Source: Bdellovibrio sp. BCCA (GTDB lineage: Bacteria > Bdellovibrionota > Bdellovibrionia > Bdellovibrionales > Bdellovibrionaceae). From it: 64,000 nt of DNA. Shown here in pieces: positions 23,047 to 55,403 of the stretch. The notes under the pieces were generated by a model, which was given only the letters and a program-made list of their open reading frames with translations, made no database searches and was not told the origin of the DNA. Made by a program: the position numbers and the translations under genes. The DNA lies in assembly GCF_037996825.1 (NCBI RefSeq), contig NZ_JBBNAC010000001.1, positions 1,054,001 to 1,118,000 on the forward strand, read 5' to 3'. The number at the start of each line of letters is the position of its first letter. Position 1 is the first letter of the stretch.

Positions 23047-23075
23047 TTGCATGTGTCTGGACCATGGTCTGTAAT
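23047..23075 (+). promoter_or_regulatory. candidate promoter of the gliding-type operon
   Basis: TTGCAT and TGTAAT are separated by exactly 17 bases, placing the RNA start near 23082. A GGAGGGG ribosome site then precedes the ATG at 23100. The -35 is weak (three of six). Confidence 0.35.
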
Positions 23076-23099
23076 CTTTGGCGATTGGAGGGGAAATAC

Positions 23100-23804
23100 A
23101 TGGAATTTCTTACTAAAGTAGCACAGGCATTTGAACACGGTGGTTTCTGGATGTGGCCGATTTTGCTCATTCAGGTGAGCTCTATTGCGATCATTATCGA
23201 AAGAGCGTACGCGCTTTTTGTTCGCAGAAAACTAAACCAAACAGCATTCGCTCTTGGATATGAAGAGTCTATTCGTCGTGGCGAAATGGACAACATCATC
23301 TCTAAAGCTCAAGCGGCTTCAGCTCAAAACCCAGTAGCTCGCGCTATCGCGGCGGGTGCGTTGGCAGCTCGTAACTTGGGTGGCAAAGAAGAGATCCAAG
23401 GTAAAATGGACGAAGTTCTTCTTGAAGAGAACGCTCACCTTGATCACCGCACAGCTTTCTTGTCTATGCTAGGTAACGTAGCAACATTGACAGGTCTTCT
23501 TGGTACGATCACAGGTATGATCAAATCTTTCGCGGCGGTTGCGTTTGCGAATCCTGCTGAAAAAGCATCTTTGCTTTCTGCGGGTATCTCTGAGGCGATG
23601 AATGCCACAGCTTACGGTTTGATTGCAGCGATCCCAGCACTAGTTGCTTATGCAATCTTGCAAAACCGTGCAAATCGTTTGGCTGAAGACTTGAATCAAG
23701 GTGGACTAAAAGTCTACAACTGGTTGAGCTATGCTTACGAACCTATCACTTCTTACCAAATCAAGACTTCTAAATCAGAGCGCAACACTGAAGTGAACGC
23801 GTAA
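23100..23804 (+). CDS. TolQ/ExbB/MotA-family channel protein (AglR-like)
   Basis: 234 residues from the ATG at 23100, eight bases after GGAGGGG. One membrane helix near the N-terminus (FWMWPILLIQVSSIAIIIER) is followed by a cytoplasmic segment (AQNPVARAIAAGALAARN) and two helices around MLGNVATLTGLLGTITGMIK and MNATAYGLIAAIPALVAYAI, the MotA/TolQ/ExbB signature. Together with the next two ExbD-like proteins it should form a proton channel in the inner membrane. In Myxococcus the AglRQS trio of the same make-up drives gliding; the ten-gene context here is similar. Confidence 0.85.
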   Translation: MEFLTKVAQAFEHGGFWMWPILLIQVSSIAIIIERAYALFVRRKLNQTAFALGYEESIRRGEMDNIISKAQAASAQNPVARAIAAGALAARNLGGKEEIQGKMDEVLLEENAHLDHRTAFLSMLGNVATLTGLLGTITGMIKSFAAVAFANPAEKASLLSAGISEAMNATAYGLIAAIPALVAYAILQNRANRLAEDLNQGGLKVYNWLSYAYEPITSYQIKTSKSERNTEVNA

Positions 23805-23820
23805 GCTTTAAGAGGTTTTA

Positions 23821-24276
23821 ATGAAACACTCTAAAAAGCATTTGGATTTTGAAGTTAACTTGATTCCGTTCATTGACTTGTTGTCAGTGTCGATCTGCTT
23901 TCTTTTGATCACAGCAGTGTGGTTGAACGTCGGATCGATGAACGTGAAACAAGCTGTCGGCGGCCAAGCGCAAGAGGACACTAAAAAGAGCCCTCTTGTG
24001 TGGATTCGCATGACAGCGCAAGGAGATTTGGATCTAGAGGTTCAACAAAGCTCTCTAGTTCCTGGCGCTCTTCGCAAGTTCCGCGTCGCTCAACAAGACA
24101 AAAAGGTGAATTACGAAGGTCTTGAGAAAGCTCTTACAAACCTGAAACAGGTTGAGCCTTCTTTGAACACTGGGTTGATTCAACCGACAGCTTCGACATC
24201 TTACGAAGAGATCATCGACGTGATGGACAAGCTTAAAAAGAGCGGAATGACTGATTTGGGCGTTTCTCCACTGTAA
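23821..24276 (+). CDS. ExbD/TolR-like protein (AglQ/S-like) 1
   Basis: 151 residues. A single N-terminal helix, NLIPFIDLLSVSICFLLITA, carries the conserved ion-binding Asp (Asp19) of ExbD/TolR. A periplasmic domain follows, ending in YEEIIDVMDKLKKSGMTDLG, the typical ExbD C-terminal helix and strand. The AGAGG ribosome site is seven bases before the ATG. Partner of the TolQ-like protein 16 bases upstream. Confidence 0.85.
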   Translation: MKHSKKHLDFEVNLIPFIDLLSVSICFLLITAVWLNVGSMNVKQAVGGQAQEDTKKSPLVWIRMTAQGDLDLEVQQSSLVPGALRKFRVAQQDKKVNYEGLEKALTNLKQVEPSLNTGLIQPTASTSYEEIIDVMDKLKKSGMTDLGVSPL

Positions 24277-24288
24277 GAGGGGGATTTT

Positions 24289-24786
24289 GTGATTTCTGAT
24301 GGCATTTTAAAAGCATCGGTACTGACGGGGACTTTAGAGGGGCACTCTATTATCACTCCGCGCGGTGCTAAGTTTAAAAGACAAATCGCCGCTGATCTTC
24401 TTTTGACAGCGTTGATTGATGCTTTCTCTATTCTTGTGATCTTCCTTTTGATGAACTTCTCGAGCACGGGCGAAATCCTGATGATCGGTAAAAACCAAGA
24501 GCTTCCGAAAGCACACTTGGCAGATGTTCTTGAAAGAAATCCTGTGATCAAAATCGACGACAACAAATTGTATGTTGAAGATAAATTGGTCGATGCAAAT
24601 TCTATCACGGCCGAGCTTCTGGATCTTCGTAAGAAGTACCAGGAACTTCATCCGAAAGAAGAGTTCCCTGGAATCGCGACGATTCAGGCGGACCGCCGAG
24701 TGAAGTACGAGTTCTTAAACCAGGTGATACTGGCGATGAACCAGGCGGGATACAGCGATATTAAATTTGCAGTAGTTGTTAAGTAG
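24289..24786 (+). CDS. ExbD/TolR-like protein (AglQ/S-like) 2
   Basis: 165 residues from a GTG start preceded by AGAGGGGG. The membrane helix LLLTALIDAFSILVIFLLMN has the conserved Asp (Asp44); the periplasmic part ends FLNQVILAMNQAGYSDIKFAVV. Two different ExbD proteins with one TolQ-like protein is the AglR-AglQ-AglS arrangement known from Myxococcus gliding. Confidence 0.85.
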   Translation: MISDGILKASVLTGTLEGHSIITPRGAKFKRQIAADLLLTALIDAFSILVIFLLMNFSSTGEILMIGKNQELPKAHLADVLERNPVIKIDDNKLYVEDKLVDANSITAELLDLRKKYQELHPKEEFPGIATIQADRRVKYEFLNQVILAMNQAGYSDIKFAVVVK

Positions 24787-24810
24787 TAAGTAGGGACAGA
24801 GGGGGTCTCG

Positions 24811-27800
24811 ATGATGAAAAAAGGACTTTTAATTATCTCTTTGTCGGTGGCAGCAGCGGCGCACGCTCAATCACCGGCAGCAAACGGGTCAACTCAAGAC
24901 CTCCTAATTCAAAAACTTACACAAGTACAATTGGGCTTGGCTCCGGCAGATCCTGCCAGAGCCGGCGTCCTTTTGCGCTTGGCGGACTTGCATGCAGAAC
25001 GTGCCCGTCAACTTTCCATGAAGGAAATCGCTGACGGTTGCACCGTTTGTAAAGCAGGCGAAAAAGACCGCGAAAAGGCACTGACATATTATACAGAAGC
25101 ATTGACGAAAGTTTCTGCCAACTCAGTAGCAAAAGTCCATTTACAAATGGGTCATCTCTATGAACTTCAAGGTCGCAATGAATTGGCTGAAAAAAGCTAT
25201 CAAGCGATGTTGAGTTCTTCATCTTCTCCGATTGAGATGGCGGAAGCCAATCTGTCATTGGCGGAAATGGCATTTAGAAAATCGGATTTCCAAAAAGCTC
25301 AAGGCCTTTACGAAAAAGTATTGGCAACAGAAGGCGCAAGTTCTCAAGGCTTGGCAGCATACCGCAAAGCTTGGTGCGCTTTCCGTATGGGAAATCTGGA
25401 TGCATCCATCGTTCAACTTCAAGAGATCTTGAAAAATCCAAAACTTCAGTCACGCATGTCTTCAGCGCGTGGTGTGGCGGATGTTCAGTTCCTTGAAGAG
25501 GTTTCTCGCGATATGGCGACTTTCATGGCCGCGCGTGGAATCAAAGACAATGATGCTGAAGTTCTTTACTCACTTTCTCCTGAGCAATTTAAACTTCAAC
25601 AAGTGACTATGCTCGCTCGTGAAGGTTTGCGTTTAGGTCAAAAAGAACCTTCTTTGAAAGTGTGGGACTTTGTTTATCAAAAACAAAGTGATCCAAAAAT
25701 GCGTCTTGAAGCGCAAGTGCGCATGGCGCAACTTAATTTCGATCTTAAAAACGTTCCTGCGGCAGCGAAGTCTTATCAAATGGCTTTGAACCTTTGGGGA
25801 GCGACTGATTGCAATGCGACGACTTGCGAAGAATCTGCAAAAGGTCTTCGTCAGTTTGTTGTTGGTTGGAATCGTATTGAAAATTCAAAACCAAGTGCCG
25901 AGCTTTTGGCCGCTTACGACGAATACTTCAAAGTCTTCTCTGAAGATGAAGATATGTACGTATGGGGTTCTCAAGCAGCGGCAACGGCTGGTAACTATGC
26001 TCAAGCAGCGCAATGGACAGCTTTAGCTAATAAAGTGATCTTGGCTAAGTACACTGTTGAAAAAGATTCTGCTCAAAAGAAAGCGCAAGCTGAAAAGCTT
26101 GAGAAGAATTTGCTCTTGGGTATCGAAAATGCTGAGAAGTCTAAAGCGGCGGTAGCCGGCAGAGCGGAAGGCCAGCGGCCTGGAGCTGAAGCAGAGGCTG
26201 ACAAACTTTTGGCGGCAGCTCAAGACGACTATTTGACGAAGTCTGTATTGAAACAAAAAACTTTCGACGTTCAATACCAAAAAGCTTATGCGATTTACCA
26301 AAAGGGTGATTACGCAGCGGCGGCAGACCAGTTGAAAGACTTGGCTGTGAACGGCAAAGGTTCACAACAAATCAAAGTTCAATCTGCGGAATTGGCTTTG
26401 GATGCCTTGGCTCTTCTTAAAGACGATGCTCGCATTCAACAATGGTCTGGAGAATTTGCTTCTAAGTTTGCAGATAAAAAATCTGAATTTTTGCAAATCC
26501 ACCAAAAATCGATCCTGACTCAATCTGCGAAATTAGCAGAAGCACAACCGGATCAAGCTTTGGCGGCGATGGCGGGCTTTAATATGGCCGCGGCTACGTC
26601 TGAAGACAGAAAAACTTATTTGAAAAATAAAATCTTGCTTAGCGAAAAATTGAACAAGATCACAGAAGCTCGCGTAGCAACTGAGGACCTTCTTCGTGAA
26701 CCATCTTTGACAGCTGATGAGCGTGAGTTCGCATTGGGACGCAAAGTTTGGTTTGCGGAACTTGAACTTGATTTCGCAACAGCTTTGAAAGCGGCAGAGC
26801 AAATGAAGTTCAGCACATTGTCTCAAGACGAAAAAGTTTTGAAACTGGCGATGTACTCAGAGCTTGCGGATAAAAGTCCTGCGACTTACTACTCTCAATA
26901 TCTAAAGCAGTCCAAAGATGACGAAAAGAAAGCCTTGATTGCTTCTCAATTGATCCGCTTGTCTAAAACTCCGGCGAAAGATCTTGAGACTTACAAACCT
27001 TACTTCAAAAACAACGCGGGTCTTTATGCTCGTGCGGCTTTGGAAGTTTACGGTGTTACAAACGACAAAAAAGTTTTGGAAAAAGCTTTGAAAGAAAAAG
27101 GCTCTTCAAAACAAGACGCGTTTGTGATGATCGAAAAAATCCTGACTTTGGATGAAGTAAAAGCTTTGAGTGCGCAACTTGCGGCTCACAAGATCGATAC
27201 GAAAAATCAAAACACAATTGCAACGGGCCTTAAAGCGCGCGTGAAGATGCTTGAAAAAGCGGACGCTCTTGCCAACCGTGCGATTGCAGCGGGTGACTGG
27301 TCATCTCAATTGCTTGCTTTGGATCTTGTGGCTAAAGAAAATGCTCGTTTCTATAACGAAGCTTTGGCTCTTCCAATGCCTGCGGGTTTGACTCCAGAGC
27401 AAGAGAACGAATACTTGACGATTCTTTCTCAACAAGTGGCTCCGAACCAAAACACAGCAACGATGGCTGAAACTAAAGTGAAAGAATTCTGGGCGCAAAA
27501 ATCAGCTTTGGATTCTTACAAAACTTTCGCTGCTAACAACTACAACTGGTCTAAGTACATTGCTTCTGAAGTGGAAGCAGTGACGGCGATTGCTCCGGAA
27601 GACCAAAAGCCCGCTTGGACAGCAGCTGTTGTTGAGATCAAAGCCGCAGAGGGTTCTTTGCAGAAACCTTCTTTGGCGGAACTTGAAAAAGCTCGTACGA
27701 ACTTGAAACAAAATCCGTTTGCAGCAAGTGCGATTCAAGAAGCGATTGCTCTTGAAAAAAAAGCCCAACGTAAGAGCATGGTGGAATACCTTGAAGGACG

Positions 27801-27852
27801 TTTGGCGACATTGGCTAAGAAGGACAGTGAAGTGAAGGAGAAACAACAATGA
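24811..27852 (+). CDS. large secreted TPR-repeat protein (AgmU/GltD-like)
   Basis: 1013 residues, signal peptide MMKKGLLIISLSVAAAAHAQ. Helical repeats throughout; TPR-like units are clear around EKALTYYTEALTKV, VHLQMGHLYELQGRNELAEK, AEANLSLAEMAFRKSDFQKA and QKAYAIYQKGDYAAAADQL. Lys/Ala/Gln-rich with few Cys. TPR arrays are protein-docking scaffolds. In the Myxococcus Glt machine a long periplasmic TPR protein (AgmU/GltD) bridges inner and outer membranes; size, export and position fit, but orthology is not proven. It overlaps the next ATG by four bases. Confidence 0.75.
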   Translation: MMKKGLLIISLSVAAAAHAQSPAANGSTQDLLIQKLTQVQLGLAPADPARAGVLLRLADLHAERARQLSMKEIADGCTVCKAGEKDREKALTYYTEALTKVSANSVAKVHLQMGHLYELQGRNELAEKSYQAMLSSSSSPIEMAEANLSLAEMAFRKSDFQKAQGLYEKVLATEGASSQGLAAYRKAWCAFRMGNLDASIVQLQEILKNPKLQSRMSSARGVADVQFLEEVSRDMATFMAARGIKDNDAEVLYSLSPEQFKLQQVTMLAREGLRLGQKEPSLKVWDFVYQKQSDPKMRLEAQVRMAQLNFDLKNVPAAAKSYQMALNLWGATDCNATTCEESAKGLRQFVVGWNRIENSKPSAELLAAYDEYFKVFSEDEDMYVWGSQAAATAGNYAQAAQWTALANKVILAKYTVEKDSAQKKAQAEKLEKNLLLGIENAEKSKAAVAGRAEGQRPGAEAEADKLLAAAQDDYLTKSVLKQKTFDVQYQKAYAIYQKGDYAAAADQLKDLAVNGKGSQQIKVQSAELALDALALLKDDARIQQWSGEFASKFADKKSEFLQIHQKSILTQSAKLAEAQPDQALAAMAGFNMAAATSEDRKTYLKNKILLSEKLNKITEARVATEDLLREPSLTADEREFALGRKVWFAELELDFATALKAAEQMKFSTLSQDEKVLKLAMYSELADKSPATYYSQYLKQSKDDEKKALIASQLIRLSKTPAKDLETYKPYFKNNAGLYARAALEVYGVTNDKKVLEKALKEKGSSKQDAFVMIEKILTLDEVKALSAQLAAHKIDTKNQNTIATGLKARVKMLEKADALANRAIAAGDWSSQLLALDLVAKENARFYNEALALPMPAGLTPEQENEYLTILSQQVAPNQNTATMAETKVKEFWAQKSALDSYKTFAANNYNWSKYIASEVEAVTAIAPEDQKPAWTAAVVEIKAAEGSLQKPSLAELEKARTNLKQNPFAASAIQEAIALEKKAQRKSMVEYLEGRLATLAKKDSEVKEKQQ

Positions 27853-28109
27853 TGAAATATGCGTTGATGACGGTATTGGTGATGGCTGGAATGGCCCACG
27901 CTGCTCCCGAAGCTGGAAAACCAGCGACGAAGAAGGCGCAAGATATGAATTTCGAAGACCTTCTTGTCAGCGGTCAATATCACTTCTCTGACGAAGCTGT
28001 GACAACAGTGGAAGAAGATAAAGTTTTGAACAGTTTGATCGGTGTAAGAACAGACTTCAAAGATCGCATGAAACAATCAGCGACTTTGGGTGAGGTGAAG
28101 AGCAAATGA
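27849..28109 (+). CDS. small secreted protein in the gliding-type operon
   Basis: 86 residues with a signal peptide (MMKYALMTVLVMAGMAHA). The mature part is a short acidic/basic sequence (MNFEDLLVSGQYHFSDEAVT) with no Cys. It overlaps both neighbours by four bases (ATGA), so it is translated as part of the operon. The function is unknown; size suggests a periplasmic connector. Confidence 0.75.
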   Translation: MMKYALMTVLVMAGMAHAAPEAGKPATKKAQDMNFEDLLVSGQYHFSDEAVTTVEEDKVLNSLIGVRTDFKDRMKQSATLGEVKSK

Positions 28110-29236
28110 GTCTAAGATTAGTCATTGAAGACAATTTAGGAAATATCACTCGCCAAATCCCGGTGACGGAGAAAAAAGCGCAAGTGATCCAACGTATGGA
28201 CACGAAACGCCTTGAAGTCGTAACCGACACGGCGGCGTTGGTGAAAAACAAAATCCAATTCTCTAAAATCGCGGATCTTGATTTTGATGAGATGAAAAAC
28301 GAAAAGCTTCCTCTTGGCAGCTTTGGTTCTCTTCGCCTTGTTAAAGAAGTGGCAGCGGTTCCGGTTGATGGTTCCGTAAAACAAGACGGTAAAAAAGATC
28401 TTAAGGCGTCTGTCCTTTTGGCTTTTGCGATCTTCTTGATGCTTCTTTCGATCGTTCGTTTTGCTCCAAAAGAGAATGCGAAAGTGACTGAAGAATTGAA
28501 ACAACAAGTTGTTAAGATTGTTCAGACAAAAGAAATGAAAAAGAAAACGGTGGCTCCGACAACAAATATGATGGCGGATCAAACGGCGACGAAGATGCCG
28601 ACAAAAAGAGCTGAACTTGTAAAACGCTCGGGCGCTTTGGCAGCGTTGGGTAGCCTTCGTTCTGGCAAACAACGTGGCGGCTTGAACTTGGGTGCTGTGA
28701 ATACAACAGCAGGTATCGGTTTGGGCGGCACGGGCGGAAGCGGTGGCGTGCAAACTTCTTTGTACGGAAAAGGAATCACATCGGCTCCTCTGGGTTCGGG
28801 CGCTAACATCAATGGTGGCGGCGGTTACGGAACAAAAGGAAAAGGCGGCGGCCAAGCTGGTTACGGCAGCCTTTCACTTGTAGGTTCCGCAGGTGGTGCA
28901 CCGGTTCCATTGGGAGCTGAAGCGGAAGTTGCTCAAGGTTTGGACCGTTCTGCGATTGACGAAGTGATTCGTCGTAATTTGGGTCAGGTTCGTTTCTGTT
29001 ACGAGCAAGCTTTGCAAGGCGCGCCTCAATTGAGTGGCCGTGTTGCGATGGGTTTCACCATCGGTGGAAACGGTCTTGTGAAAACAGCTCAAGTTGAAAG
29101 TTCTTCGATGGCCAATAAAGGCGTTGAAGATTGCATTACGATGCGTTTGAAAACGTGGAAGTTCCCAGTGCCTCAAGGAGGCGTGGACGTGAAAGTAACT
29201 TATCCATTTGTATTACGTAGACAAGGTCAGGGGTAA
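28106..29236 (+). CDS. AgmX/PglI C-terminal domain protein, TonB-like (GltG/GltJ-like)
   Basis: 376 residues. A cytoplasmic N-terminal domain (1-90) precedes one membrane helix (ASVLLAFAIFLMLLSIVRFA, about 96-115), then a Lys-rich and a Gly-rich periplasmic linker (GLGGTGGSGG, INGGGGYGTKGKGGGQ) and a TonB-like C-terminal domain from about residue 280. There IDEVIRRNLGQVRFCYEQAL, SGRVAMGFTIGGNGLVKTAQ and FVLRR match the AgmX/PglI domain. TonB-like reach across the periplasm is how GltG and GltJ are thought to transmit force in Myxococcus. Here the N-terminal part does not show an FHA motif. Confidence 0.8.
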   Translation: MSLRLVIEDNLGNITRQIPVTEKKAQVIQRMDTKRLEVVTDTAALVKNKIQFSKIADLDFDEMKNEKLPLGSFGSLRLVKEVAAVPVDGSVKQDGKKDLKASVLLAFAIFLMLLSIVRFAPKENAKVTEELKQQVVKIVQTKEMKKKTVAPTTNMMADQTATKMPTKRAELVKRSGALAALGSLRSGKQRGGLNLGAVNTTAGIGLGGTGGSGGVQTSLYGKGITSAPLGSGANINGGGGYGTKGKGGGQAGYGSLSLVGSAGGAPVPLGAEAEVAQGLDRSAIDEVIRRNLGQVRFCYEQALQGAPQLSGRVAMGFTIGGNGLVKTAQVESSSMANKGVEDCITMRLKTWKFPVPQGGVDVKVTYPFVLRRQGQG

Positions 29237-49503: not shown

Positions 49504-50418
49504 GTGAAAAACAAGTTAGCACTTGCAGACTGCAAAGACGTTCTTTTAAAACTGTCTCTAATTGCAACTATGTTTCTGTCGCCAGAAATCTCTCTAGCTC
49601 GCAAGGCGAACGCAGTCGGCGGCTTTTACACTGTCTATCGCTATGATGTGGCAGCAAAGGGCTCGTGCGTTCCGGATCACGATTCAACTCCGAAAGAAAT
49701 TCTTCGCCGCAACGGAATTAAATATTCCGGCAATCCTTCAGAGCAGGAAGTGGCCGCTCTCGCAAAAGGCATTGCTCAAGTAGAAAATCTTTTAGGTGAT
49801 CCATTGCCGATTCCGTGGCGCCAAAATTATAATTTTATTACGGCGACTGGAAAATGGAATCAAGGCGCGACATCTATCAATGTCCGTCGTCCTAAAGGCT
49901 CACCCAAGGGCACCAATGTCGGACGTATGATGCACGAGTTGGGACATAAAGTTGGAAACTCAGGCGTGTATCAAAAATATCAAAGCTTCACGGGGCGCAC
50001 GCGCTGCCGCATCACCGGTTATGCTGCTTCAAAATTCAACGAAGAGTTCGCGGAAGTTTTTGAGGCTTACGTCGTCTATCCGGATCTTTTAGAACAAAAA
50101 TGTCCTAAAGCTTTTGAGTTCATGTCTAAAAAATTATTTCCAAATACGAACCATAAAATCTCAAGTTGCGACAGAAATTCGGATGATCAGAACCCCGAAA
50201 CGCCTTCGGTTGTTCCGCTCCCAATCCCTCGTCCATCGGATTTAGGAAGTGTGGCTGAAGTAGAGACAGATGAAGATGCCGTTATCACACCTGATAATGG
50301 AGACGATGAAGACGACGATGACGACGTTGTTGAAGCGGCTCCGTCGCCTGAAGAAAAATCTTCGCATGTAGCACAAGTACCAATCCCAACGCCACGCCCG
50401 TCTCGGGGAGCGAAATAG
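49504..50418 (+). CDS. secreted zincin metalloprotease-like protein
   Basis: 304 residues from a GTG start with GGGAG seven bases upstream. N-terminal hydrophobic segment (LLKLSLIATMFLSPEISLA) acts as a signal. The zinc motif HELGH (His144, Glu145, His148) is clear, and NEEFAEVFEAY about 30 residues later may give a third ligand. The catalytic part ends near residue 225; the tail is acidic and Pro-rich (DEDDDDDVVEAAP flanked by VVPLPIPRPS and AQVPIPTPRPS). Function inferred: extracellular peptidase, perhaps acting on prey. The tail may be a low-complexity tether. Confidence 0.75.
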   Translation: MKNKLALADCKDVLLKLSLIATMFLSPEISLARKANAVGGFYTVYRYDVAAKGSCVPDHDSTPKEILRRNGIKYSGNPSEQEVAALAKGIAQVENLLGDPLPIPWRQNYNFITATGKWNQGATSINVRRPKGSPKGTNVGRMMHELGHKVGNSGVYQKYQSFTGRTRCRITGYAASKFNEEFAEVFEAYVVYPDLLEQKCPKAFEFMSKKLFPNTNHKISSCDRNSDDQNPETPSVVPLPIPRPSDLGSVAEVETDEDAVITPDNGDDEDDDDDVVEAAPSPEEKSSHVAQVPIPTPRPSRGAK

Positions 50419-50616: not shown

Positions 50617-52296
50617 ATGTCTTTTAATTATAACAAGAATAAGGAACATCATTCGCAAGATAGTTTTTGGACGTCCTATTCGGATTTGTTTTTAGGCTTG
50701 AGTACGATTTTTCTTTTATTGTATGTGACAGCCAGTCTTCGAACAGGAACAGAAGGATTGCGAAATCAAATTGAGAACCAAAAGCTTTCCATGAAAGTGG
50801 AAGAGTTGGAGCATCAATTGAAAATGTATGAATCAGTCAAGAATGACTATATCGAAAACCAAGCCACGAAGGACGAGGCCCAAGAGTATCAGGAGCTTAT
50901 GGATAAGCTCACTCTCTTGCAAGAAGATGCGAAGAGCGAAAAAGACCGTTTAGTGCAAGAAGCACTTGAAAACGAAAAAAAAGTCAAAGCTCTTAATAAA
51001 TACCAACAAATGGTTCGCAACGTTTTAAATTCTAATAAAATGGCGAAGGCGAAAATCATCAACCGTGATGATTTGATCAAAGAACAAGATGTCGAGATCG
51101 AAGGCCAGGAACAAACTATCACTGAGTTGAACCAGGATATTCAATCGAAAAAACAACTCATCGCTCAGGGCGAAAACAAAATCAAGGAAACGCAGGCAGC
51201 ATTGCAAAAGCGTGTGAACGAACTTCGTTACGCTTATAAAATGAATAAACTTTCAAAAAACCTGTTTGAGCAGAAGATGGCTCAAGCTCGTGCTGAGAAC
51301 CATCAAAAGGTTCAGCAGCTTGCAAATGTGAATGCGCAATATCAAGCACAATTACAGCAAGCCAGTGCGCAGTTGGGACAAGTTCAGGGAGAGCTTTCAA
51401 AAACTCAAGGCATGCTGACAGAAAAAGAGCAGGAAGCAAAATATCTCGCGGGAACTCTTTCAAAAACGAAAGCCGAGTCGCAAGCTAAGATGGCTGCGAT
51501 GTCACAGGGATTCGCCGCAGAGAAAGCAGGGATGCAGGCAGGCTTTGCTGCGGAAAAAGCGGGTTTGCAACAAGGTTTAGCCGCCGAAAAAGCAGCGGCG
51601 GCCCAGAAGCTGGCAGCAGCTCATGCGGGCCTGATGGCGGAGCGCCAAGCGGGCGCACAAAAAGTGGCAGCCTTACAAGGGCAGTTGAGCGATACACAAG
51701 GACAGCTTGCCAAAGCGAAAGCTGAAATCGAAGCGCGAAAAATGGTGGCCGGAGAAATCCAACGCGGTTTTGCTAAGGCCGGTGTCAAAGCTGATATCGA
51801 TTTACAAACAGGTGACGTGGTTTTGGATTTCGGCCAGGCTTACTTTGACAGCGACTCCGATCGTTTAAAAAAGGAAATGAAAGGCGTGCTTGAAAAAGCG
51901 ATGCCGATTTATTCCAAATCGCTGTTTGGAAACCCTAGAGTGTCTGACAAAATTTCTGCGGTGGAGATCATTGGTTTTGCTTCTCCAACATACCAAGGTC
52001 GTTTTATCGATCCACAAAGTTCTAAGGCCGAAGATAAAGTGGCCCTCAAGTACAATATGGATCTGAGCTACCGTCGCGCGAACTCTATTTTCACTTATAT
52101 GCTGGATCAACAAAACGTTCAGTTTGATCACCAAAAAGAGCTTCTTTCTTTGATGAAAGTCTCAGGCCGAAGTTTCTTGGAAGTGATGAAAGTACAGAAC
52201 CGCAATATCGCTTCTGCGGCGGAGTTCTGTAAGCAAAATGATTGTAAGAAAGCTCAAAGAGTTATCATTCGTTTCAGCATGGATACTAAAAAGTAA
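50617..52296 (+). CDS. MotB/OmpA-like protein with long coiled coil
   Basis: 559 residues from the ATG at 50617. Near the N-terminus SYSDLFLGLSTIFLLLYVTA is a MotB-type membrane helix whose Asp23 matches the proton-binding Asp of MotB (YADFMTAM in E. coli). A very long coiled coil follows (about 50-385: repeated EKAG, QLAKAKAE, Ala/Gln/Lys heptads). Near the C-terminus an OmpA-like peptidoglycan-binding domain is present: VVLDFGQAYFDSDSDRLKKE, VEIIGFASPTYQG and MDLSYRRANSIFTYML. MotB normally has a short linker; here about 340 residues of coiled coil separate channel and anchor. First gene of a three-gene operon. Confidence 0.8.
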   Translation: MSFNYNKNKEHHSQDSFWTSYSDLFLGLSTIFLLLYVTASLRTGTEGLRNQIENQKLSMKVEELEHQLKMYESVKNDYIENQATKDEAQEYQELMDKLTLLQEDAKSEKDRLVQEALENEKKVKALNKYQQMVRNVLNSNKMAKAKIINRDDLIKEQDVEIEGQEQTITELNQDIQSKKQLIAQGENKIKETQAALQKRVNELRYAYKMNKLSKNLFEQKMAQARAENHQKVQQLANVNAQYQAQLQQASAQLGQVQGELSKTQGMLTEKEQEAKYLAGTLSKTKAESQAKMAAMSQGFAAEKAGMQAGFAAEKAGLQQGLAAEKAAAAQKLAAAHAGLMAERQAGAQKVAALQGQLSDTQGQLAKAKAEIEARKMVAGEIQRGFAKAGVKADIDLQTGDVVLDFGQAYFDSDSDRLKKEMKGVLEKAMPIYSKSLFGNPRVSDKISAVEIIGFASPTYQGRFIDPQSSKAEDKVALKYNMDLSYRRANSIFTYMLDQQNVQFDHQKELLSLMKVSGRSFLEVMKVQNRNIASAAEFCKQNDCKKAQRVIIRFSMDTKK

Positions 52297-52308
52297 TAGG
52301 GGTGGGTT

Positions 52309-53211
52309 GTGACTACAAAGGCATTGGCAGAATATTTTATAATAATGCTCCCATACTGCATGGCGGGCGTGTTTTTAGTGGGGCTGTTCTTCAGAAGCAT
52401 TATTTATTACACCGTTCGTCGCCACGAATGGTTTGCACGGGAATTTGAAAAACGTGTAAATCAGTATATGGAGGGCGAGGTTCCCGGAAAATCGGAGAAC
52501 GTGTCTTTCTATGTCTTATCAAAAAAAATCCTGGAAAGAACTTATTACGAGGTTTTTGAAATCCGCGACCGTATGAAACGCAGAAAGCCGGATTCAATAA
52601 TGTCCACTAGTGACCGCGTCTTCTTGGTGCGCCAGGGGTGTGCGTGGTTGGTGAAAGACATTTTAAAACAGTTGAAATTTTTAAAATGGAACGAAGGAAA
52701 TCCAAAACTTCTCAACATCACAAAAGCAACTTTGCAACATAATCCTTGTTTCAACCGTGTGTTTGGCGTTTTGCCGATGGTGGGAATCAATGATTTGATT
52801 TCAATCTTGCCAGGTCTTTTCGTCGTGGCTGGTATCTTGGGAACTTTCATCGGGATCGCCGGTGGTTTGCAGGAACTAGGAACAATGAATCTGCAAGATC
52901 TTGAGAATACCAAAAACATCATGGACCGTTTCCTTCATGAAATCTCTTTTGCGATGAAGACATCTATCGTCGGTATTATCTTCTCGTTGCTTTCGCACGT
53001 GACGAATACGATCTTATCTCCTGAAAGATCTTATGTGTCGATGGTCGATCGTTTTGAAAGTGCATTAGACCTTCTTTGGTATCGCAGCGATAACAATAAT
53101 TTCCCTGCCCATGAAAGACCTTTTGATGAACATCGTGATGCCGTAGAAGCGTTGGCAGAGGATGCTCTGAATAAAGAAATTGGGAAGGCGCCCGTGGCCC
53201 GAGGAGCTTAG
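52309..53211 (+). CDS. MotA/TolQ-like membrane channel protein
   Basis: 300 residues from a GTG start (GGGGTGG site). One membrane helix at the N-terminus (FIIMLPYCMAGVFLVGLFFR), a cytoplasmic helical region (RHEWFAREFEKRVNQYMEG to KWNEGNPKLLN), then a pair of helices containing LPGLFVVAGILGTFIGIAGG and FAMKTSIVGIIFSLLSHVTN, which follow the TolQ/MotA TM3-TM4 pattern. With the MotB-like protein it should form an ion-conducting stator-like unit. It lacks the long cytoplasmic tail of ZorA proteins. Two bases separate it from the FHA gene. Confidence 0.8.
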   Translation: MTTKALAEYFIIMLPYCMAGVFLVGLFFRSIIYYTVRRHEWFAREFEKRVNQYMEGEVPGKSENVSFYVLSKKILERTYYEVFEIRDRMKRRKPDSIMSTSDRVFLVRQGCAWLVKDILKQLKFLKWNEGNPKLLNITKATLQHNPCFNRVFGVLPMVGINDLISILPGLFVVAGILGTFIGIAGGLQELGTMNLQDLENTKNIMDRFLHEISFAMKTSIVGIIFSLLSHVTNTILSPERSYVSMVDRFESALDLLWYRSDNNNFPAHERPFDEHRDAVEALAEDALNKEIGKAPVARGA

Positions 53212-53213
53212 TT

Positions 53214-55403
53214 TTGAATACGTTCACAGTCACTATCCACAGGAAGGATCAGGTGCTCAGCCGTGAGGTGAATAAAGATTCATTCACCGTCGGCCGATCT
53301 ATCGACTGTGACATTTCGTTAAATGACAACCATGTCAGCCGCGTTCACCTTGTTGTAAGCCGCCGTTGGAACCAAATTTGGATTGAAGATAAAAATTCTT
53401 CCAACGGCACCTTTGTTAACGGCACCAAAATCGTACAGGGAACTCCGGTCAACGTTGTTTCCACTGATAAAATTCAATTGGGCCGCTCCGAATACATTAT
53501 TGTGATTGATCTTAAAACAGAAGAAGTCGCAGAGCCCGTTCCGGAACCGGAAGCGGCATCTGCTGAGGAGCCCGTTTTAGAAGACACGGTGGCAATGCCT
53601 CCGCCAAGCAATGCGCCTTTTCAGGCCGAAAAAGCTTTGCATGACGCAAAAAGAAAAGCCGCGCAAATTATTTTAGAGGGGGAGACCCAAGCCGAAAAAC
53701 GCGTGCAGGCGATTTATCAAAAAGCCCGCGAAGCTCAGGCGCAAGCTGAATATTTTTATCAAACTCGCATGACGGAAGCTCATAAAGAGGCCGATGCGAT
53801 TTTAGCGGATTACCAACAACAAGGCCGCAATCTTTTGCAAGATGCGCGCAACATGGCCCAAGAACTGCGTGAAGAAGTCGACATGTATGTTCAAGGCCTG
53901 AAAGAAAAAGCCAAACGCGACACCGAAGATATTATTTCTGAGGCGACCTTAGCGGCAGAAAAGATGAAAACGGAAGCTTTGGAACAGGGTCGTCAAGCCG
54001 CACAAAATGAAACCGATGGAATGTTGCGTGGAGCTCGTGAAGAGGCCTCGCGCATCCTGGAATTTGCACAGTTACAAACCCAAGAAACTCAAGAAAAATT
54101 AAAATCCGAAAAAGAAGCTCTTGAAAAAGTGAGCGGTGAACTTGCAACAACTCGCGAGATGTTGGCGACTTCAATCAATTCATTGGAAGAAACAAAGGCC
54201 ATTGAGTTAGAGTTGCAGTTAAAAATTCAGTACGAAGAAACACGAATCAAGACTCTTTTAGAGGATGAGGCCACTCGTTTAAAAGCGCTCTATGAAAAAG
54301 AAGATACCCGTATTAAAGAACGCCTTACTGAAGAAGAAACCCGTGTCAAAGAGCACCGTGGTCAGTTGCAAACTTTAACTCAGCAAAATAAAACCCTTGA
54401 GGACGCAGTTCGTTCTTTACAAGAAAAACAAGCCGCTCTCAGCATGGATGTTCGCGACATTGAGGCCAAAAAAACGCATCTCTTTAAAGAATACGAAGCC
54501 CAGAAGATTTTTCTGAATGAAAAGTTAGAAAAAGAAAAATCCGCCATGGTAAAAACCGAAGAAGAGCGTTTGGAAGAAATGCGTCTGGAAATGTCCAAGC
54601 GTTTACAAAAAATGGAGCGGGATCTTTTAGATGACGTCATTCGTAAAAAAGAAAACCTAATTAAGGAAATCCACGCCGCCGTTGAAAAAGAGATCGTGCT
54701 TTTGATGGAGCCAACTCAATGGCGCAATATTTCCGCGTCCGTCGAGGAACATATTAAGGAAGCTGTCGAGGGCCGGGTTGCCTCATTGTCGCAGTCTTCA
54801 GTGACATCTGCAAAACCTGTCGACTTCATGAAAAAGCGCAAGAGCGAAAAACTGCGTTGGGCTTCCATGGGCCTTGCTATGGGAGCACTGGCATATTTCG
54901 TCAGCCAAGTGGTTGTTGAGAAAGTGTCCGGCGATCAGGCTCCGATGCAAACTCTAGTGCAGAACGAAGCCAAGAAGCGACAAGAAGAACTCGAGAAACG
55001 CCGTTTTAATCCCGCTCAAGCCGAAGAGCTTAAAGACAGCTATACGGATGCGGTCATTTACACGAGAAACTTCCCGGATATCTACACGGATCAACAGTTC
55101 CAGCAGAAACTTTATAAGTCCGCATCCCAATATCTGTTGAAGACCTGGAGAGTGGATGAGGACAAATCGATCCAAGTACTTTCTACTGCGACAGCTCTGG
55201 TGAAAGAGCTGACCGAAAAAAAAGGAAAGATTCATCCTGATTTTATTAAAGAAGGCATTGAAAAAATGCGCGGCCTTGAAACAGAAACGCTCGCCCGAAT
55301 GAAGGATATTTTAGGTTCCGAAGTTCGTGTAGAGTCGTTCCGCCGATTCGAACGTAATTTCTATAGAGAAGAAGTGCAGCGCAGAAGAATGGCGCAGCAC
55401 TAA
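53214..55403 (+). CDS. FHA-coiled-coil transmembrane protein
   Basis: 729 residues from a TTG start after GAGGAGC. N-terminal FHA domain (1-100): FTVGRSIDCDISLNDNHVSR with the phosphothreonine-binding Arg28, Ser42 region and NSSNGTFVNGTKI. Then a long Glu/Lys/Gln coiled coil (about 130-530). One membrane helix near 547-566 (LRWASMGLAMGALAYFVSQV), then about 160 residues outside the membrane rich in helices (QAEELKDSYTDAVIYTRNFP). FHA would read phosphorylated partners in the cytoplasm and pass that through the membrane to the motor. No close known architecture comes to mind. Confidence 0.8.
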   Translation: MNTFTVTIHRKDQVLSREVNKDSFTVGRSIDCDISLNDNHVSRVHLVVSRRWNQIWIEDKNSSNGTFVNGTKIVQGTPVNVVSTDKIQLGRSEYIIVIDLKTEEVAEPVPEPEAASAEEPVLEDTVAMPPPSNAPFQAEKALHDAKRKAAQIILEGETQAEKRVQAIYQKAREAQAQAEYFYQTRMTEAHKEADAILADYQQQGRNLLQDARNMAQELREEVDMYVQGLKEKAKRDTEDIISEATLAAEKMKTEALEQGRQAAQNETDGMLRGAREEASRILEFAQLQTQETQEKLKSEKEALEKVSGELATTREMLATSINSLEETKAIELELQLKIQYEETRIKTLLEDEATRLKALYEKEDTRIKERLTEEETRVKEHRGQLQTLTQQNKTLEDAVRSLQEKQAALSMDVRDIEAKKTHLFKEYEAQKIFLNEKLEKEKSAMVKTEEERLEEMRLEMSKRLQKMERDLLDDVIRKKENLIKEIHAAVEKEIVLLMEPTQWRNISASVEEHIKEAVEGRVASLSQSSVTSAKPVDFMKKRKSEKLRWASMGLAMGALAYFVSQVVVEKVSGDQAPMQTLVQNEAKKRQEELEKRRFNPAQAEELKDSYTDAVIYTRNFPDIYTDQQFQQKLYKSASQYLLKTWRVDEDKSIQVLSTATALVKELTEKKGKIHPDFIKEGIEKMRGLETETLARMKDILGSEVRVESFRRFERNFYREEVQRRRMAQH

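Follow-up and report, generated by a model that had tools for sequence, protein, structure and literature searches.

What kind of machine is encoded by three adjacent Bdellovibrio genes that specify a MotB-like protein, a MotA-like protein, and a protein combining an FHA domain, a coiled coil, and a transmembrane (TM) helix? The genes lie head to tail on the + strand, as do all their features described below, within the window, that is, the whole 64,000-nt stretch analyzed here (contig 1, 1054001-1118000) of the 4.0-Mb genome G000, whose nearest named relative in our tree is B. bacteriovorus. The coordinates of the open reading frames confirm an earlier note on this DNA, which had placed the three genes 12 nt and then 2 nt apart. 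Our analysis reveals that this trio, in the order B subunit, A subunit, FHA protein, is an unnamed, conserved motor module. Profile and predicted fold place its motor core nearer to ZorA and ZorB than to any other solved structure, including those of flagellar MotAB, TolQR, and ExbBD. As a whole, the trio is best explained, with a probability of roughly 0.6, as a ZorAB-type, wall-anchored motor with an FHA partner, probably phospho-regulated, that acts in trans.

Three Genes Conserved as a Unit across Bdellovibrionota

We read 109 loci, 29 and 80 of them from two overlapping genome/contig sets. The order B, A, third gene on one strand is the rule across Bdellovibrionota loci, with gaps of mostly about 5-25 bases. 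Since the same three genes recur in this order and on one strand across the phylum, the trio is far beyond what chance would produce. Clustering of flanking genes in 45 lineages found the B and A subunits in all 45 and the third protein in 37, while the next most frequent family was found in 4. The A subunit is encoded in 179 of the 369 genomes of the phylum and in 65 of the 106 good genomes of the class; most class members have one copy of the trio. Scored by the A subunit and the third protein's outer domain, 144 genomes of the class divide into 80 with both, 57 with neither, five with the A subunit alone, and two with the outer domain alone (Fisher p 1.5e-31, in a test that ignores relatedness). 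The gene-neighborhood check proposed in the earlier note has thus found the three genes nearly always together, with 80/144 genomes having both markers and 7/144 having them apart.

Losses point in the same direction. In three congeners (G018, G003, and G014), the flanks match those in the window and all three genes are missing together, and the complete 2.66-Mb genome G025, probably that of Pseudobdellovibrio exovorus, also lacks all three. In G007, a rearrangement has split the B-A pair from the third gene, each with its own flank, and no gene has been lost. In a 76-row tree, which otherwise broadly follows taxonomy, four Bacteriovoracaceae are nested, with full support, among the Bdellovibrionia, which suggests that their trio was acquired by transfer. 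Because of the joint loss, the split without loss, and the apparent transfer, we consider the module to be self-contained, dispensable, and linked. The ratio of nonsynonymous to synonymous substitution rates (dN/dS) of motA is about 0.04-0.05; the measure is saturated for most pairs and usable for motA only. Three contigs filed as Actinomycetota, Thioalkalivibrio, and Streptomyces (L076, L106, and L113) bear near-identical or typical Bdellovibrionota versions of the module and are probably mis-binned metagenome contigs.

The Motor Core Is Closest to ZorA and ZorB

The A subunit (52309-53211; GTG start, 300 aa) is a MotA/TolQ/ZorA-like protein. Its three hydrophobic TM segments, at residues about 10-28, 158-188, and 212-230, follow a layout shared with ExbB, TolQ, and ZorA, whereas MotA has four TM segments. 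As a single sequence it matches PF01618 with 18.7 bits, below the cut-off (in relatives, PF01618 reaches 1.1e-5), and an NCBIfam scan gave no match to a MotA family. The NCBIfam model ZorA_2 matches with an E value of 4.5e-11 and 42 bits, so the curated cut-off of 100 is missed, and the PADLOC model ZorA1 matches with 6e-12. When a profile of 26 MotA-like proteins was compared with all PDB sequences, ZorA chains were the only significant matches (8vvn with 1.4e-7 and 8qyd with 1.5e-5). The Zorya models and the PDB profile search thus bear out the earlier assignment of this protein as a MotA/TolQ-like channel subunit. The sole plasmid match of the A profile is a protein annotated zorA, aligned over TM3-TM4, with which it has GTF (TM3) and TS (TM4) motifs in common. 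The corresponding residues, Thr179 and Ser219, lie in two channel helices and are strongly conserved, the Thr being present in at least 87 of 88 distinct A proteins and the Ser in 88/88. The A subunit is without a long C-terminal cytoplasmic rod, its channel helices ending near residue 230 and being followed by a short tail; the ZorA control is 708 aa long. A scan of the 369 genomes with the ZorA_1 model, in which coiled-coil decoys may crowd the search, gave no match above cut-off and two weak ones.

The B subunit (50617-52296; ATG start, 559 aa) is MotB/ZorB-like, with a short cytoplasmic N terminus, one TM helix, a long helical neck, and an OmpA-like domain. The TM helix (residues 23-41; 50683-50739) begins with a conserved W..YSD motif, FWTSYSD in the window, which includes the ion-binding Asp23. 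This Asp is found in 82/82 distinct B proteins, in 72 via a regular motif and in the other 10 by inspection. In ZorB, the equivalent Asp packs against the Ser/Thr ring of ZorA (PMC11890865). The OmpA-like peptidoglycan-binding domain (from about residue 392; 51790-52293) displays an N..LS..RA motif and a Cys pair and probably binds the wall; its single-sequence Pfam OmpA match of 18.1 bits is below the cut-off. The PADLOC model ZorB1 matches the B subunit with 5e-30, and NCBIfam ZorB2 yields 24 bits versus a curated cut-off of 400, which is missed. A single-chain structure was predicted from 27 sequences, with a predicted local distance difference test (pLDDT) score of 73. For this model, the only significant match from Foldseek is ZorB of 8vvn (3.8e-6), and structural alignment also ranks ZorB first (Z 16.6, 15.4, and 14.3), followed by MotS/MotB (Z 12-13). 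As far as this single-chain model goes, the outcome that the earlier note had named as refuting, a predicted structure without MotA/MotB-like TM pairing, has thus not come about.

Between TM helix and anchor extends a helical neck of about 350 residues (50740-51789), the first 110 of which are conserved in the alignment. The earlier description of a MotB-like protein with a TM Asp, an OmpA anchor, and a long neck is accurate, the length having been put at about 340 residues. As a single long coiled-coil rod, however, the neck finds no support in the model, in which two long helices (pLDDT 78-90 on either side) are interrupted at residues 209-213. Structural alignment matches this region to antiparallel coiled coils, among them the inter-SH2 segment of p85 (Z about 11-12, root-mean-square deviation about 2.3). 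The predicted neck thus doubles back on itself, forming a helical hairpin with its turn near these residues. A straight 350-residue helix would measure about 52 nm, more than the periplasm could hold, but there would be room for a hairpin whose first arm is about 25 nm long.

Both subunits are closest to those of Zorya ZorAB (types I and II; PDB 8vvn, 8vvi, and 8qyd), with which the Thr/Ser ring, the TM Asp, and the OmpA-like anchor are common features. The two systems nevertheless differ. The rod of Zorya is inside the ZorA chain, whereas here the A subunit has none and a coiled coil is found on a separate membrane protein, the FHA-coiled-coil-TM partner provided in trans. The long B neck also sets the module apart, no counterpart of the ZorC, ZorD, or ZorE effector is linked to it, and the curated NCBIfam cut-offs for ZorA and ZorB are missed. 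The coiled coil of the third protein may play the part of the ZorA rod.

An FHA Protein with a Helical Outer Domain

The third protein (53214-55403; TTG start, 729 aa) measures 707-1440 aa in relatives and has the architecture that had been read from it, that is, an FHA domain, a coiled coil, one TM helix, and an outer segment. The FHA domain (residues 25-90; 53286-53483) is detected by Pfam with an E value of 3e-17 (63.3 bits versus a cut-off of 20.7), and its phosphothreonine-site residues (Gly-Arg, Ser-Arg-x-His, and Ser-x-Asn-Gly) are conserved, the site motif being present in 69/77 relatives. Sequence and alignment place a long cytoplasmic coiled coil, whose length varies between relatives, at 53601-54833. 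The single TM helix, assigned by hydropathy (residues 550-568; 54861-54917), is preceded on the FHA side by the basic stretch KKRKSEKLR. The remainder forms a conserved outer domain of 130 residues (55011-55400), predicted to be periplasmic and without a recognized relative. Its predicted structure is all-helical (pLDDT 87). No matches were obtained with the outer-domain profile in PDB and Pfam, and with the predicted fold Foldseek gave none below E 1 and VIA gave Z scores of at most 6.5, which are typical of chance for helical bundles, so that no family is excluded thereby. In some third proteins the FHA domain is undetectable while the outer domain is still there, which makes the outer domain the more constant part of the protein.

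The earlier note was wrong in treating an FHA partner as absent from known motors. In the AglRQS gliding system, the FHA-TM-TonB protein GltG binds AglR, as a two-hybrid assay has shown (PMC3169522). Because GltG-AglR is known, the FHA partner itself is not new; what sets the present module apart is the partner's combination of a long coiled coil and a helical outer domain, together with an OmpA-anchored, long-necked B subunit. The third protein matches the GltG model with 45.5 bits versus a cut-off of 650, at the FHA end only. Two Ser/Thr kinases are encoded in the host genome, and they could write the mark that the FHA domain would read.

Additional proteins of this kind were seen in a few lineages. 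In three Bacteriovoracaceae loci (L084, L085, and L088), a gene on the opposite strand near the apparently transferred trio specifies a second large FHA protein of 891-962 aa, and in two other lineages an extra FHA protein is encoded just upstream of the MotB-like gene (L058 9795-10673 and L065 2487-3767). G051, G122, G123, and G124 carry copies of the outer domain on proteins of about 480-550 aa away from the motor pair, which suggests a second partner-type protein in one genus.

Proposed Mechanism

We propose that the three genes form one functional module, with a ZorAB-type, ion-driven core in the inner membrane that would probably consist of five MotA-like subunits around two MotB-like subunits. 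The OmpA-like domains, at the tip of the folded helical neck, would tether this core to peptidoglycan, and the separate single-TM partner would connect its helical periplasmic domain with the FHA domain and long coiled coil in the cytoplasm. Ion flow past Asp23 would most likely turn or strain the ring of MotA-like subunits against the MotB-like axle that is anchored to the wall. Through the partner, the motor would be coupled on one side to a cytoplasmic protein bearing a phosphothreonine mark and on the other to the periplasm, and a Ser/Thr kinase could thereby switch the motor or determine where it is placed. Because a few relatives do without a detectable FHA domain, FHA reading would be an added layer of regulation. 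Of the phospho-regulated, peptidoglycan-anchored motor or force transducer first proposed in the earlier note, the ion-motor-like pair conserved as a unit with an FHA subunit has stood, and the phospho-control is what we infer.

The motor would probably be at work mainly in free-swimming attack-phase cells and on the envelope, an envelope function in such cells being its most likely task. This assignment comes from the model predator HD100, which we take G006 to be. In that genome, a YkuD-type protein is encoded seven genes downstream of the third gene. Should this protein be Bd1176, which PMC12546842 names among the L,D-transpeptidases, gene counting (not annotation) indicates that the B, A, and third genes are probably Bd1167, Bd1168, and Bd1169, a count with which the position of the operon relative to dnaK (Bd1298) agrees roughly. 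Bd1167 has been published as a coiled-coil gene that is active in attack phase, with its expression reduced once prey has been entered (PMC2797640), and we found no literature naming the operon beyond Bd1167/Bd1168 in that report. Because the presumed match of the B gene is lowered after prey entry, use in attack phase is suggested; for the predation role that had been raised earlier, the Bd1167 match provides a hint only.

Several observations weigh against the wall-anchored, phospho-regulated motor proposed here. Contact between the core and the third protein is argued from co-inheritance only, and genus g25 (G047, G052, and G092-G094) has the motor pair with the third outer domain undetected, while G122 and G123 have the outer domain without the motor pair. 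Phospho-reading is not universal, the FHA domain being undetectable in the third proteins of L140, L145, L146, and L143, which keep the outer domain. The neck hairpin comes from a prediction on 27 sequences, the diaminopimelate-binding Asp that is usual in OmpA domains is replaced (GFASP for GHTD), and the link to published expression stands or falls with the gene count that leads to Bd1167.

More tentatively, and at somewhat less than even odds, the module may represent ZorAB-type motors of a new functional class, known to date from Bdellovibrionota only, with a kinase-controlled FHA coiled-coil rod in trans, a periplasm-spanning hairpin-neck axle, and an attack-phase envelope task served by no known motor. 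ZorAB-type motors are known from phage defense. The retention of a ZorAB-like core across a phylum, unaccompanied by effector genes, would reveal other uses for this branch of motors, and it would also show that the cytoplasmic rod can give way to a phospho-reading partner. The module is, in addition, a candidate outlet for Ser/Thr kinase signaling in a predator in which little is understood of how attack-phase decisions are made. Its three genes (probably Bd1167-Bd1169) can be tested in HD100.

Alternative Functions

An envelope-maintenance or cell-cycle motor, which would act like Tol by pulling or positioning parts of the wall and outer membrane under the control of a Ser/Thr kinase, is unlikely but accounts for several features. 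It would explain the OmpA anchor and the helical outer domain, and it agrees with the presence of the module in genomes without flagellin (G125 and G127) and across several classes of the phylum. TolQR-TolA and ExbBD-TonB also combine a three-TM A subunit with a third, single-TM protein. The operon differs from them in the OmpA-type anchor of its B subunit, in the cytoplasmic FHA domain and coiled coil, and in having no TolA/TonB domain, since the C-terminal domain of the third protein has no Pfam TonB match and is all-helical. The module is, moreover, dispensable in several species, and the operon is without a TolA/TonB-like or Pal-like partner.

That the nearest relatives are ZorA and ZorB makes a Zorya-like, anti-phage system worth weighing, in which a wall-anchored motor would sense envelope damage at phage entry and the FHA-coiled-coil protein, replacing the ZorA rod, would alert an unlinked effector. 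The module is dispensable and apparently transferable, as defense modules are. We nevertheless find this function doubtful. No effector gene is linked in any lineage, the most frequent further neighbor being present in 4/45, and neither a Zorya effector (ZorC/ZorD/ZorE) nor a defense-island context was found at the loci sampled. The 110 flanking proteins from 32 loci are housekeeping in character, with only a handful matching PADLOC defense models, and no nuclease or helicase effector is found among the neighbors in the window, which upholds the earlier view that the missing adjacent nuclease or helicase leaves a Zorya-type defense role unsupported. The trio also mostly follows relatedness, its A subunit being in 65/106 good genomes, which is more regular than a typical defense island, and this subunit is without a rod in cis.

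Equally doubtful is a force-transducing role in moving over surfaces or entering prey, in which, as in AglRQS-GltG, the third protein would carry the work of the motor across the envelope. Its FHA-TM-periplasmic layout matches that of the AglR binder GltG, and in AglRQS-GltG of Myxococcus and Bdellovibrio a MotA/TolQ-type subunit is genetically linked to such a partner, as it is here. Bd1167, the probable HD100 orthologue, is on in attack phase and reduced after prey entry. However, AglRQS has two TolR-like B subunits instead of one long-necked, OmpA-anchored B, and the TonB domain of GltG contrasts with the long coiled coil and all-helical outer domain of the third protein, for which no TonB-like match was found. 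The linked glt genes have no equivalent in the operon, which has no conserved further neighbor, and the host genome has separate GltG-AglR-like loci elsewhere. The trio is absent from two complete genomes, G025, probably of an epibiotic predator, and the congener G018, and the main text of a transposon screen (PMC6561027) names no operon member as a prey-entry match. The window itself contains, at 23064-29236, a TolQ/TolR-type cluster that is one of several Agl-like motor clusters in the host genome. It encodes a MotA/ExbB protein (23064-23804), two TolR-like proteins (23821-24276 and 24289-24786), a 1013-aa repeat protein, and a protein resembling the C terminus of GltG (28106-29236).

Flagellar MotAB/PomAB have the TM Asp and the OmpA-like anchor of the B subunit in common with the operon, which differs from them in its three-TM A subunit, its long neck, and its occurrence without flagella, the near-complete genomes G125 and G127 carrying the A subunit and the third protein without flagellin. 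An auxiliary flagellar stator, although suggested by a MotA/MotB-like pair in mostly flagellated bacteria, is highly improbable, being largely refuted by the TM count (three segments and not four, with no NCBIfam MotA match), the closer affinity to ZorAB, and the presence of the trio in these two genomes.

Sequence Flanking the Operon

A promoter/terminator scan found sites no more numerous than in shuffled sequence. Just upstream of the B gene, at 49504-50418, a secreted protein with an HELGH metalloprotease-like motif is encoded. It has a weak, subthreshold match to the ATLF peptidase family and is found in some congeners only.

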